From positions 1 through 13,761 of the forward strand of contig JADFJB010000120.1 of assembly GCA_022566355.1 (NCBI GenBank): a DNA stretch of 13,761 nt, given 5' to 3'. Position 1 is the first letter of the stretch; every line of letters starts with the position of its first letter. Shown here piece after piece: positions 9,031 to 13,761 of this stretch. Source of the stretch: a candidate division KSB1 bacterium. GTDB taxonomy: Bacteria > Zhuqueibacterota > JdFR-76 > DREG01. Made by a program: the position numbers and the translations under genes. The notes under the pieces are model-generated. The model searched no databases, was not told the DNA's origin, and was given only the letters and a program-made list of their open reading frames with translations.

Positions 9031-9807
9031 ATGAAGAGAATATTTGTGGTTACGATAAGCACGATAGGCTTTTTGGTGGCGATTACCTTTTTGTGGCAGT
9101 ATGAGTACCAGATAAATGATAGTTCTGAAAAATGGGATCCCGTTGCGACTTTTTCAATTCTCGGTTATGATCCCGAAACCGGCGAAGTTGGCGGCGCTGT
9201 ACAATCCCGGGTGTTTTCGGTTGGCAATGGCGTCTTGTGGGGTGAAGCAAATGTGGGTATCGTCGCAACACAGGCCATTGTCGATGTGAGCTATGGAACA
9301 CAAGCGCTTGCATTATTAAAAAAGGGGCTTTCACCGGAAGATGTTGTGAAGCAGGTTTGGGAGAATGATCCCGATCCTCGTCCGGACAGTTGGACAAAGT
9401 ACGGTCGTCAATTTGCGGTTATGAATCCAAAGGGTGAATACAAAGCGTACACCGGACCTAAAGCATCGGATTGGGCTGGTCAAAAAGGGGGTAAATATGT
9501 TACGGCTCAAGGCAATATTCTTGCAGGTGAAGCGGTTGTTAACGATATGGTCACGGCTTTTGAAAACACAAAAGGACATCTTTCGTTGCGGCTCCTGGCA
9601 GCTCTGGAAGCAGGCCAGGCCGCTGGTGGGGATGCACGCGGTATGCAGTCGGCGGCTATGCTCATCGTCAAAGAGGATGGCGGTGTTTGGCTGAACAATG
9701 ATGTGGTTTTGCGTTTGCAGGTTGACGATAACCCGGAACCGATCAAAGAGCTGCGTCGACTTGTCGAAAAGGCTGTCAAGCGTTTCAGATTTGGGGAGCG
9801 GAAATAA
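9031..9807 (+). CDS. DUF1028 family protein (Ntn-hydrolase-like), probably exported
   Basis: Predicted 258 residues. A basic start and a hydrophobic stretch (about 4-22) suggest a signal peptide or N-terminal anchor; no clear cleavage site or lipobox is seen. The DUF1028 domain follows almost to the end. It begins TFSILGYDPETGEVGGAVQSR (40-60) and continues with GIVATQAIVDVSYG, AAQ-like TAQGNILAG (158-166), and the signature ALEAGQAAGGDARGMQSAA (191-209). It closes with VDDNPEPIKELRRL, the usual family end. The family resembles Ntn-hydrolases such as asparaginase-like enzymes, but its substrate is not established. The conserved Thr at the domain start (T40) could be tested as a nucleophile, which is inference. 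The gene is first of a pair with the M28 peptidase gene 129 bp downstream. Confidence 0.9.
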   Translation: MKRIFVVTISTIGFLVAITFLWQYEYQINDSSEKWDPVATFSILGYDPETGEVGGAVQSRVFSVGNGVLWGEANVGIVATQAIVDVSYGTQALALLKKGLSPEDVVKQVWENDPDPRPDSWTKYGRQFAVMNPKGEYKAYTGPKASDWAGQKGGKYVTAQGNILAGEAVVNDMVTAFENTKGHLSLRLLAALEAGQAAGGDARGMQSAAMLIVKEDGGVWLNNDVVLRLQVDDNPEPIKELRRLVEKAVKRFRFGERK

Positions 9808-9897: not shown

Positions 9898-9923
9898 TAA
9901 GAATTTGTGAAATCAAAACCAAA

Positions 9924-9936: not shown

Positions 9937-12900
9937 ATGGAATTATTTACCAAAAAAATATCTCATGTATTTATGCCGATTTTTGCTTTTGTTTTTTTGA
10001 TTTCGTCACCCTTAGTTTCTCAAGAAAAAGTAGACTTGGATATTGTTGAGAGAATTAAGGAGGAAGGATTCAATCGCTCCCAGGTGATGGACTATGCCTG
10101 GCATCTGACGGATGTTATTGGACCGAGATTGACAGGATCGTCGAACATGCGTGAGGCGCAAGAATGGACAAAAGCAAAAATGGATCAGATTGGGCTCAGT
10201 TCAACGGCCATCGAATCGTGGGGTGAACATGGTGTGAACTGGGATTTGGAATATGTTTCCCTGCACATGCTGGAACCGGATTACCAGGTTCTGATAGGAT
10301 ATCCCCAGGCATTTACGCCAGGGACGGATGGAATAATAACCGGAGAGCCTATCATTGTTAATATTAAAAGTAAGGCGGATTTGGATAATTACAAGGGCAA
10401 ACTGAAGAACGCAATTGTTTTGTCCACTCCTAGGCGGCAGTATGGTCCTAGATTCACTGCAGATGCGATCCGTCACGATGAAAAATCACTGCAGGTTTTT
10501 GTTGAAGAAGGAATTGATCATAACATTCGGGAACGAAGGAAAGAGCAATGGATGCAGAATCCACAAGGGCCCAAAGATCTCAACGCTACTGAGTTAGAAG
10601 AATTTTTCAAATCTGAAGGGGTTGCTGTGGTTTTGGCTGCAGCCAGGGGTGGGGATGGTACTGTATTTGTTTCTGGCAGGCGCAGCAATCGGCGTGACCG
10701 TTCACTTAAAGCTGTGAAGAACAGCCTGCCAACGGTTGCCATTGCAGTTGAACATTACAACCGCATCCACCGGCTGGTGGAACGTAACATTGATGTGAAA
10801 CTGGAAATCGAAATCAGGGTCAATTCTGTGCAAAGGGACAAGCAGGAATATAATGTTGTTGGAGAGATCCCCGGCAGCGATCTTACTCATGAGATTGTCA
10901 TGATCGGTGCACACCTGGACTCCTGGCACTCGGGTACCGGCGCCACCGATAATGCATCGGGTTCTGCTACAGTTCTCGAAGCGATGCGAATATTAAAGGC
11001 AATCGGAGCAGCTCCACGTCGAACGATTCGAGCGGCTCTTTGGAGTAATGAAGAAGGCGGATTGCGCGGCTCTAGGGCATATGTAGCGAACCACTTTGGC
11101 AATCCCAGGGACGGTATTCTTCCCGACTATGAGAACTTTTCAGTTTATTTCAATATGGATAACGGAACAGGCCGGTTTCGTGGGGTTCATCAGCAGGGCA
11201 ATAAATTTGTAGGATCAATTTTTTCCGAATGGATGAAACCTTTTTATGATCTTGAAATTTCTACGCTCTCTAATTTCAGTAATCGGGGTTCCGATCAACT
11301 TTCTTTTGACCAGGCCGGATTGCCGGGTTTTCAATTCATTCAGGATAGGATAGAATATCGCACCAGAACGCACCATACGAACATGGATGTTTTCGATAAA
11401 CTGCTTCCGGAAGACCTTAAAATTAATGCCGTTGTGCTAGCCGGCTTTGCTTATAATGCTGCCATGCGGGACGAGCGTATCCCTCGAAAACCGTTCACTG
11501 ATTGGCGGCCGCAGTTTAAAATTGCACAAAAAGATCTTTTCAAAAGTGGTAATTCTCTAACCAATGCCATTGCCGATTTCGATAATGATGGCGACCTGGA
11601 TATATTCGTCGGTTTTAGAGGCCAGCCAAACAGGCTTTATCGCAACGATGGTGGAAAGTTCACGGATGTAGCGGCGGATGTTGGCGTCGCGGATAACGAT
11701 GTAACTCGAACTGCCGCATGGGGGGATTACAACAACGATGGCAATCTCGACCTGTTTGTAGCTTTTGTTTCACGACAGAAAAGCTGGAACCGGCTTTATA
11801 AAAACGAAGGTAATGGCAAGCGTTTTACCGATGTGACAAAGATTACAGGTGTAAGTTTAACCGGTAGTTTTCGCCAGGCATGTTGGATTGATTATGATAA
11901 TGATGGCGATGTAGATCTGTTCATTGGGTTGCGGGACAAACCGAATGTTCTCTTTCGCAATGACAATGGAAAATTCACCAACGTCGCAAAATCACTCAAT
12001 ATCGATGATCCTCGCCGGACCGTCGGCGCTGTATGGTTCGATTTTGATAAAGATGGCGATCTTGATCTTTATGTCACCAACATGGATGGTGATGCAAATG
12101 GTCTGTTCCGCAATGATGGTACCCGTTTTGTCGATGTTGCACCAGAGCTTGGTTTAGATAATGGTGGAAGACCTCTGGGGTTTAGCGCTTATGGCAGTGT
12201 ACGGCCCACCCTAGTGGATTTTGATAACGATGGCAATATAGATATTTTTATAGCCAATTACGGCCCAAACGGATTATTCCGCAATTTGGGCGGCAGCTTT
12301 AAAAATGTTGCCGCGCAAATGGGATTGGCTATAGATGAACGATACGATACCGGCGCCTGGGGTGATTATGACAATGATGGCCGCCTCGATTTATATGTCA
12401 ACGGCACAATTACCGGCGGTAAGAGCTATCGAGACTATTTATTCCACAATGATGGTGACCGTTTTACCGACATTACGCCCAAAATTCTCCTGGATCAAAA
12501 AGCCGACCATGGTGTTCACTGGGCTGATTTCGACAAGGACGGTGATCTGGACCTGGCACTTACCGGAGCAGCTTCTGACGGTATGCATCACCTGGTTCTT
12601 AATGAGATAGATAAAAAACGTGCAAATAGATCACTGCAAGTTCTCGTTCTGGATGCCAGGGGTCACTACACGCGAGCAGGATCTGAGGTTCGATTATATG
12701 ACGCAAATTCCGGTGTCTTGCTTGGCACAAATATTTTAGATACCGGTTCTGGCTACAATTCACAAAATGCCATGCCGGTACATTTCGGATTAGCAAAACA
12801 AGGTCTCGTGGATGTTGAAATTACAACACTGACTAAACAGGGACGCAAAACCGCACGGCTATCCGATATCGATCCAAAGTCTTATATCGGTCGTTGGCTG

Positions 12901-12939
12901 GTGGTAAAAATTGATGAAAATGGCAATGTGACAAAGTAG
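9937..12939 (+). CDS. Secreted M28 zinc metallopeptidase with seven FG-GAP repeats and ASPIC/UnbV domain
   Basis: Predicted 1000 residues. Signal peptide 1-28 (cleavage near LVS-QE). The M28 domain carries the full two-zinc set: H326 in GAHLDSWH, D338 in GATDNASG, catalytic E372 and ligand E373 in SNEEGG, D408 in NMDNGTG, and H479/H480 in THHTNMD. The spacings H-12-D-35-E equal those of Streptomyces aminopeptidase (H85, D97, E132). The region about 130-320 is probably a PA-like insert. Seven calcium-loop repeats of the form D-x-D-x-D-G-x-x-D follow, at 547, 597, 652, 702, 761, 810 and 864, 49-59 residues apart, enough for a seven-bladed integrin-like propeller. Residues about 893-982 match ASPIC/UnbV (GSEVRLYD, GSGYNSQNAMPVHFGL). 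No T9SS tail is evident. It probably cleaves N-terminal residues from peptides outside the cytoplasm. Its last codons (NVTK, stop) are made of the ACAAAG repeat. Confidence 0.92.
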   Translation: MELFTKKISHVFMPIFAFVFLISSPLVSQEKVDLDIVERIKEEGFNRSQVMDYAWHLTDVIGPRLTGSSNMREAQEWTKAKMDQIGLSSTAIESWGEHGVNWDLEYVSLHMLEPDYQVLIGYPQAFTPGTDGIITGEPIIVNIKSKADLDNYKGKLKNAIVLSTPRRQYGPRFTADAIRHDEKSLQVFVEEGIDHNIRERRKEQWMQNPQGPKDLNATELEEFFKSEGVAVVLAAARGGDGTVFVSGRRSNRRDRSLKAVKNSLPTVAIAVEHYNRIHRLVERNIDVKLEIEIRVNSVQRDKQEYNVVGEIPGSDLTHEIVMIGAHLDSWHSGTGATDNASGSATVLEAMRILKAIGAAPRRTIRAALWSNEEGGLRGSRAYVANHFGNPRDGILPDYENFSVYFNMDNGTGRFRGVHQQGNKFVGSIFSEWMKPFYDLEISTLSNFSNRGSDQLSFDQAGLPGFQFIQDRIEYRTRTHHTNMDVFDKLLPEDLKINAVVLAGFAYNAAMRDERIPRKPFTDWRPQFKIAQKDLFKSGNSLTNAIADFDNDGDLDIFVGFRGQPNRLYRNDGGKFTDVAADVGVADNDVTRTAAWGDYNNDGNLDLFVAFVSRQKSWNRLYKNEGNGKRFTDVTKITGVSLTGSFRQACWIDYDNDGDVDLFIGLRDKPNVLFRNDNGKFTNVAKSLNIDDPRRTVGAVWFDFDKDGDLDLYVTNMDGDANGLFRNDGTRFVDVAPELGLDNGGRPLGFSAYGSVRPTLVDFDNDGNIDIFIANYGPNGLFRNLGGSFKNVAAQMGLAIDERYDTGAWGDYDNDGRLDLYVNGTITGGKSYRDYLFHNDGDRFTDITPKILLDQKADHGVHWADFDKDGDLDLALTGAASDGMHHLVLNEIDKKRANRSLQVLVLDARGHYTRAGSEVRLYDANSGVLLGTNILDTGSGYNSQNAMPVHFGLAKQGLVDVEITTLTKQGRKTARLSDIDPKSYIGRWLVVKIDENGNVTK

Positions 12940-13010
12940 CAAAGGCACAAAGTGACAAAGTAACAAAGTTACAAAGGCGCAAAGTAGCAAGGTACAAGGT
13001 AAAAGGTAAA
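12928..13010. repeat. ACAAAG-type imperfect tandem repeat overlapping the peptidase 3' end
   Basis: Units of 8-9 bp of the type GTGACAAAG / TAACAAAG / GGCACAAAG repeat from 12928 to about 12990 and decay into GGTACAAGGTAAAAGG. The first unit supplies the last three codons and the stop codon of the peptidase gene. The 18-mer AGTGACAAAGTAACAAAG at 12951-12968 recurs exactly at 13707-13724. Confidence 0.8.
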
Positions 13011-13055
13011 AAGAAAGAAACATAGATCAAATGTCATTCCTGCATGCTTTTAAGG

Positions 13056-13143
13056 GTGACATTACGAGGAATGAAATGATGAAGCAATCTCCTGCCCATA
13101 TGAGGAAATCGCTTCTCCGCCAACCGGTGGATCGCGATGACAC
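13056..13143. repeat. 88-bp MITE-like inverted repeat (GTGACATTACGAGGA ... GATCGCGATGACAC)
   Basis: The left end GTGACATTACGAG pairs imperfectly with the right end CGCGATGACAC, and inside these GAAGCAATCTCCT (13081-13093) faces AGGAAATCGCTTC (13102-13114). The layout resembles the dispersed TGTCATTGCGAG...GAAGCAATCTC repeat seen in many bacterial genomes. It has no coding capacity. Direct target duplications are not evident. Confidence 0.6.
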
Positions 13144-13149
13144 GTAATT

Positions 13150-13221
13150 GGTAGGACAGACATTCTTGTCTGTCTAAGTAGGAGCCTTTGGGTGTGGACA
13201 GATAGGAATGTCTGTCCTACC
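13150..13221. repeat. Two head-to-head copies of the GTAGGACAGACA palindrome
   Basis: Copy A (13150-13176) contains GACAGACA-TTCT-TGTCTGTC, a perfect 8-bp stem with a 4-nt loop (13155-13174). Copy B (13196-13221) is the same repeat inverted, with arms GGACAGATA and TGTCTGTCC (13196-13217; one G-T pair) and loop GGAA. Because A and B are reverse complements over about 26 bp, the whole segment can also fold as one large hairpin around a 20-nt spacer. Confidence 0.8.
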
Positions 13222-13343
13222 GGATCTTCGGTTTTAACATTGTTATTTATTTAATTTTTTATTTTTTGCTATTTGCCATTTGCTTTTTAGGGTTAGCATA
13301 ATCATTTATCCCGCATGCCATTTATTGACCATACTTTGGATAT

Positions 13344-13382
13344 GGACAGACAAAAATGTCTGACCTACTGGATCTTCTGTTT
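13344..13382. repeat. Third copy of the GGACAGACA palindrome, same orientation as copy B
   Basis: GGACAGACA-AAAA-TGTCTGACC (13344-13365) is the palindrome with one broken pair. Similarity to copy B continues past the stem: CTACTGGATCTTCTGTTT here against CTACCGGATCTTCGGTTT there, so the repeat unit is about 39 bp and longer than the palindrome alone. Confidence 0.75.
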
Positions 13383-13479
13383 GGTAATTTGATTTTTAGA
13401 ATTTGTGATTTATTTGTGTTTTGTGTTTTCTTATCTGGTATTCGGCAAGAGCGTGAAACGGCAAATGGCAACGGAGAAA

Positions 13480-13512
13480 ACCACAAAGGCACGGAGTCAC
13501 AGAGTAGCAAAG
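13480..13512. repeat. CACAAAGGCACGGAGTCACAGAG repeat
   Basis: ACCACAAAGGCACGGAGTC followed by ACAGAGTAGCAAAG is a short run of 8-9 bp units related to the ACAAAG repeats at 12928 and 13702. This CACGGAG/CACAGAG form is a common intergenic repeat in FCB-group genomes (recalled resemblance). Confidence 0.5.
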
Positions 13513-13537
13513 ATATGAAATGTGAAATGGCAAACGG

Positions 13538-13570
13538 AAACCTCTCAGGTTTTCGAAACCTGAGAGGTTT
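13538..13570. repeat. Perfect 15-bp hairpin (AAACCTCTCAGGTTT-TCG-AAACCTGAGAGGTTT)
   Basis: Arms 13538-13552 and 13556-13570 are exact reverse complements around a 3-nt loop. The element is symmetrical and would fold on either strand. It ends in TTT but no longer U-run follows. No gene directly precedes it, so a repeat-family role is as likely as transcription termination. Confidence 0.8.
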
Positions 13571-13600
13571 AGTGTTGGTTGACTCGGACAAATCACCGTT

Positions 13601-13628
13601 AGAACAGACATTCTTGTCTGTCCTACTG
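13601..13628. repeat. Fourth copy of the ACAGACATTCTTGTCTGT palindrome
   Basis: ACAGACA-TTCT-TGTCTGT (13604-13621) is identical in its core to copy A and is followed by CCTACTGG as in copy C. With the copies at 13150, 13196 and 13344 this makes four in under 500 bases. Confidence 0.75.
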
Positions 13629-13701
13629 GTTAGCAAAGCTCAATCCTGCAATTTTTGGATATTGTATATTGCAATTTAGGATTTGTTTAGGTGTTCAAAT
13701 G

Positions 13702-13761
13702 CACAGAGTGACAAAGTAACAAAGGCACAAAGGCACAAAGGCACAAAGGGACAAAGGGAAA
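13702..13761. repeat. ACAAAGGC tandem repeat at the window end
   Basis: CACAGAGTGACAAAGTAAC leads into consecutive 8-bp AAAGGCAC units and ends AAAGGGACAAAGGG at the window edge, so the array may continue. It shares an exact 18-mer with the copy at 12951. Confidence 0.8.

Follow-up and report, generated by a model that had tools for sequence, protein, structure and literature searches.

An M28 peptidase joined to a CRTAC1-like propeller and ASPIC/UnbV cassette in a candidate division KSB1 bacterium

Is the apparent joining of a zinc peptidase to a calcium-loop propeller and an ASPIC/UnbV domain, read from one stretch of candidate division KSB1 DNA of 13,761 nucleotides (the window), a genuine arrangement, and if so, what would the peptidase gain from its C-terminal half? 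The gene is a single frame of 1000 codons at 9937-12939 on the forward strand, which runs from an ATG at 9937 to a stop codon ending at 12939 with zero internal stops. A GTG at 9907 was considered as an alternative start, and the ATG was preferred since it has a Shine-Dalgarno-like AGGAG, a ribosome-binding site, just upstream. The product begins with MELFTKKISHVFMPIFAFVFLISSPLVSQ, a secretion signal of about residues 1-29 (9937-10023, forward strand, as are all features of this gene) that was judged by eye to be of the Sec type. This is followed by an M28 di-zinc exopeptidase unit of about residues 30-518 (10024-11490), delimited by Pfam, phmmer, a fold match and its ligands, and by a short linker of about residues 519-526 (11491-11514), placed between the M28 C-terminus and the first propeller strand from the ends and starts of homologues. 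Residues 527-889 (11515-12603) make up a seven-bladed Ca2+-loop β-propeller according to AlphaFold2, the motif count and the match to CRTAC1, and the ASPIC/UnbV domain follows at residues 899-992 (12631-12912), as located by Pfam, the homologues and a whole-genome scan. That an M28 domain, seven calcium loops and an ASPIC/UnbV domain share one polypeptide, as an earlier note on this DNA had claimed, is thus borne out by the frame, Pfam and the fold matches in agreement. To the composite reading that this is a genuine secreted M28 fusion, that its C-terminal CRTAC1-like cassette acts as a docking module, and that the fusion joined two genes which had already been neighbours and had been acquired together, we give about an even chance.

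The N-terminal half matches Peptidase_M28 (PF04389) over residues 306-500 with an E-value of 2.4e-31, which places it in family M28, and phmmer aligns it with the Shewanella M28 peptidase 3iib (E 1.1e-29). In the full-length AlphaFold2 model, residues 30-521 superimpose on 3iib with a Z-score of 35.2 over 422 residues, with an inserted apical region at about residues 110-300. The five metal ligands (H326, D338, E373, D408 and H480) and the catalytic glutamate (E372), whose roles were assigned through the alignment with 3iib, are all present, and the six residues are nearly invariant across 18 M28 homologues. By sequence, this half is a family M28 di-zinc exopeptidase of the carboxypeptidase-Q/aminopeptidase type, for which the sequence cannot tell an amino-, carboxy- or dipeptidase mode apart, and it would act outside the cytoplasm, trimming off amino acids or short peptides as its family does. 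The layout with the apical insert, the metal ligands and secretion are all shared with 3iib and with its relatives carboxypeptidase-Q, BSAP and the Vibrio aminopeptidase. Where these proteins end, including a 519-residue paralogue in the same genome (L160), the window protein by contrast runs on into the propeller.

In the C-terminal half, Pfam finds FG-GAP_3 in six stretches (E 2.1e-44), while the number of Dx[DN]xDG calcium-loop motifs is exactly seven, at residues 547, 597, 652, 702, 761, 810 and 864, with one in each predicted blade, in keeping with the seven repeats counted earlier. UnbV_ASPIC (PF07593) matches residues 915-962 with 21.1-22.3 bits, slightly under the gathering score of 23.4, and the domain scores 26.2 bits in the whole-genome scan, above the cut-off. 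The weak call is upheld because 47 of 49 cassette homologues match UnbV_ASPIC and because the fold match to CRTAC1 spans the C-terminal domain. Seven FG-GAP blades with calcium loops followed by an ASPIC/UnbV domain is the order of the CRTAC1-like, or ASPIC-UnbV, proteins, which are widespread from bacteria to vertebrates.

Prediction of residues 521-1000 by AlphaFold2 with 48 homologues gave a seven-bladed propeller and an ASPIC domain at a mean pLDDT of 94.2 and a pTM of 0.93. This model has 27 propeller strands within residues 540-889, which fall into seven groups with one calcium loop each; there are three strands in the seventh group, and the first group is preceded by a lone strand at residues 527-530. 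Propeller rings are usually closed by just such a lone N-terminal strand, which completes the last blade. Strand 527-530 would be the 28th and would close the ring, a pairing drawn from strand order, so the structure prediction that the earlier note had proposed as a check returns the seven-bladed fold, with its closure supplied by this assumed pairing. The cassette aligns with mouse CRTAC1 (PDB 9etn) at a Z-score of 43.3 and an rmsd of 2.4 Å over 452 of 480 residues with 23% identity, and the alignment covers propeller and ASPIC domain together, reaching cassette residue 474. Of the window protein, the C-terminal half alone is covered by the match to mouse CRTAC1, and the matched chain showed no M28 domain. 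Among the cassette homologues, the aspartates of the loops, which are putative Ca2+ sites, are conserved in the alignment.

Could such a frame have been produced by misassembly? A chimera of assembly or binning has to be considered, as the genome is a draft of 213 contigs. Stand-alone M28 homologues stop at query residues 517-525 and stand-alone cassettes begin, after a signal peptide of their own, at about query residues 525-527, so that the junction lies exactly at a domain boundary and in frame. The frame is unbroken, G+C content is similar on either side of the join, and, as set out below, each half is independently placed beside the same lineages, in which the genes are linked; such congruence of trees and gene linkage would not be expected from a misassembly. 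A chimera of either kind therefore has very little probability, and the possibility that two separate genes were joined by an assembly error, which had been named as grounds for rejecting the fusion, is very unlikely in view of the in-frame join at the domain boundary, the congruent trees and the linked genes of relatives. The full-length AlphaFold2 model (pLDDT 69, pTM 0.56) is good in the M28 half and poor in the propeller half because its alignment contained just two cassette rows, and the relative placement of the halves is not readable from it.

Trees were made separately for the two halves. The closest relatives of the cassette are the fusions to S9 peptidases in G082 (Acidobacteria NP133) and G237 and the stand-alone copy of G357 (support 100/99), while the M28 peptidases of G236, G315, G082 and G237 form the sister group of the M28 half (support 100/98). 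Acidobacteriota M28 peptidases are 57% identical to the M28 half. In G315, separate cassette and M28 genes lie on the same strand with 73 bp between them; in G082 and G237, an M28 gene lies shortly downstream of the S9-cassette fusion, two genes apart, with an alanine racemase gene in between in G082; and in G145 a more distant M28 gene abuts the cassette gene. M28 genes occurred within two genes of cassette genes five times against 0.9 expected, with P about 0.002 by a rough Poisson estimate in which related genomes were counted as independent. M28 genes abound in the sampled cassette-bearing genomes (13-30 in each), so the adjacency alone is modestly beyond chance (P roughly 0.002-0.02), and it is its combination with both trees that makes a common source of the halves persuasive. 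By their sequences, both halves have their nearest relatives in the same Acidobacteriota lineages, where the genes are linked. Horizontal acquisition of both is likely, since the cassette is rare in the phylum group of the window while the Acidobacteriota copies reach 70-71% identity. The M28 and cassette genes would probably have been neighbours beforehand, have been acquired together and have fused later in the lineage of the window.

Homology to the cassette is full-length (residues 525-998, with 46-71% identity over about 470 residues, the ASPIC part included) and is described by a single tree. In the class of G083, 44 of 193 genomes encode it at E ≤ 1e-80, whereas within the phylum group of the window a match is found in 3 of 82 genomes, the window genome included, even at 1e-45. 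At most inspected loci the cassette is a stand-alone secreted protein of about 490-560 residues. The copy of G357 (L150:4250-5929), 65-71% identical to that of the window, has a glycine/serine/aspartate-rich insertion in the region from blade 2 to blade 3. A search of plasmids returned one stand-alone cassette, from Sphingobium, and a search of viral contigs returned nothing.

The cassette also occurs in two fusions to S9 peptidases of the α/β-hydrolase kind (L010 and L085), with Peptidase_S9 plus PD40 where Pfam was run, and in six fusions to penicillin acylases (L086, L087, L090, L091, L152 and L153), in three of which the penicillin amidase is confirmed by Pfam and in three of which it was identified by alignment to those. 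The cassettes of the two groups are 70% and 46-57% identical, respectively, to that of the window protein, and they too sit at the C-terminus of secreted amide hydrolases, although the catalytic domains are unrelated to M28. Parsimony on the cassette tree requires five changes of partner state. The cassette is therefore probably a reusable C-terminal module rather than a one-off, since other bacteria have it by itself or on either of two further, unrelated enzymes that cut amides. The M28 fusion itself is known from the window genome only among about 700 genomes searched: no second one was found in the family (3 genomes), class (7) or phylum (82) of the window or in 396 Acidobacteriota genomes, with the two best candidates per genome scored in the last search and the cassette alone used in that of the phylum. 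Long frames with a C-terminal M28 match in L157 and L158 were discarded as overlong antisense readings in high-GC DNA. The suggested architecture search thus yields no repetition of the M28 pairing while finding the same cassette on S9 peptidases and penicillin acylases. The earlier statement that enzyme domains are usually absent from FG-GAP/ASPIC proteins stands in that most cassette copies are alone, and needs amending for the S9 and penicillin-acylase fusions and for a kinase fusion in the same genome. The latter (L178:784-4239, contig 29) is a protein of 1152 residues that combines a Ser/Thr protein kinase with NHL repeats, FG-GAP and ASPIC/UnbV.

These distributions bear on the possibility that the fusion is a neutral accident, in which neighbouring genes for secreted proteins lost the intervening stop codon and signal peptide and the two halves work independently. 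The separate neighbouring genes of related lineages, the restriction of the fusion to one genome and the short, plain linker would all fit this explanation. On the other hand, the cassette is joined to at least three unrelated types of hydrolase and always at the C-terminus of the enzyme (the partner being N-terminal in every M28, S9 and penicillin-acylase fusion), which suggests a selected arrangement, and the seven calcium loops and the zinc ligands are all retained. We regard such an accident as unlikely, with a share of the evidence in its favour.

What, then, would the cassette do? To our knowledge, no clear role has been assigned to ASPIC propellers. Judged from sequence comparison, its most likely function is that of a Ca2+-stabilised docking domain which localises amide hydrolases. 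The cassette would have no chemistry of its own; with as many as seven Ca2+ ions to keep it rigid, it would dock the enzyme outside the cytoplasm by binding either a polymer at the surface or a partner in the outer membrane, for example the TonB-type β-barrel receptors encoded near other cassette genes, so that amino acids or short peptides would be released beside their uptake route. The cassette is found on amide hydrolases of zinc, serine and Ntn type, and the simplest need common to them would be docking near an uptake receptor or a surface polymer. That the propeller anchors the peptidase in a calcium-dependent way, as was suggested earlier, is plausible, and made more so by the occurrence of the same cassette on three unrelated amide hydrolases and often alone. 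One cassette on three such enzymes, together with linked separate genes, provides a direct clue to a role in localising or assisting secreted hydrolases, and the M28, S9 and penicillin-acylase fusions form a small set of enzymes for tests by adding or removing the cassette. Dockerins are the docking domains of cellulases. A broader analogy, by which the cassette would be a general dockerin-like carrier for amide hydrolases, fused or separate, with one shared acceptor, perhaps a TonB/CarboxypepD_reg receptor, appears doubtful.

A further possibility is that the cassette is itself catalytic, which would make the fusion a two-step enzyme. The fold matches include aldos-2-ulose dehydratase (Z 30), a calcium propeller with catalysis, and the invariant residues outside the loops include H334, R122, Q123 and Y416 (alignment columns in cassette numbering). 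CRTAC1, for which we know of no enzyme activity, is by far the best match (Z 43.3), and this argues against catalysis. The propellers of rhamnogalacturonan lyase 11 are catalytic (PMC9218822), and with this precedent included we consider a catalytic cassette improbable.

In other proteins, Dx[DN]xDG calcium blades are structural or regulatory (PMC3123361), and the related VCBS propellers have typically been linked to the recognition of carbohydrates, as well as to protein-protein interaction (PMC9218822). Propellers with such blades are carried by other enzymes, namely phospholipase D with integrin-like repeats and rhamnogalacturonan lyase, which have in common with the window protein the Dx[DN]xDG blades in an extracellular enzyme-containing protein (PMC3123361). 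These enzymes are other than M28, and rhamnogalacturonan lyase uses the propeller itself for catalysis. Among the freely accessible papers searched, none reports FG-GAP/ASPIC fusions with M28, penicillin acylase or hydrolases in Acidobacteria. Both domains are known, as are calcium propeller-enzyme fusions in general, while the pairing of M28, FG-GAP and ASPIC is undescribed in the literature searched. We know of no ASPIC domain in the phospholipase D and rhamnogalacturonan lyase propeller proteins.

Gene neighbourhoods provide the candidates for docking partners. At four loci (L086, L089, L090 and L119), an OMP_b-brl_4 outer-membrane β-barrel gene, most with CarboxypepD_reg, is near or beside the cassette gene, and at L089 a separate M28 gene lies between the two. 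A serine β-lactamase-family hydrolase gene abuts the cassette gene at L088, and an M28 gene on the opposite strand does so at L117. No TonB receptor gene lies beside the window fusion gene. Its upstream neighbour (9034-9807, forward strand) encodes a secreted-looking DUF1028 protein (PF06267, E 1.7e-64) with a membrane or signal N-terminus and a solved relative (PDB 2imh); it ends 129 bp before the ATG of the peptidase gene, with which it is possibly co-transcribed. None of the Acidobacteriota loci examined has a DUF1028 gene beside the cassette. At L010 (3994-12910) and L085, genes for the S9-cassette fusion, an exported-looking alanine racemase, an M28 peptidase and an M14 peptidase are clustered, possibly as a set for extracytoplasmic processing of peptides and D-amino acids.

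Elsewhere in the genome of the window (contig 16, minus strand, L176:4148-18884), three consecutive proteins of roughly 1250 residues have two FG-GAP/ASPIC units each, and beside this trio lies a protein of 968 residues with multihaem-cytochrome and TPR matches. An Rfam scan of the window returned no RNA. The remainder of the window downstream of the fusion gene (12939-13761) is non-coding and contains 8-bp tandem repeats of the ACAAAG type together with copies of ACAGACATTCTTGTCTGTCC inverted repeats, with the ACAAAG-like repeats reaching as far as the fusion gene's stop codon.
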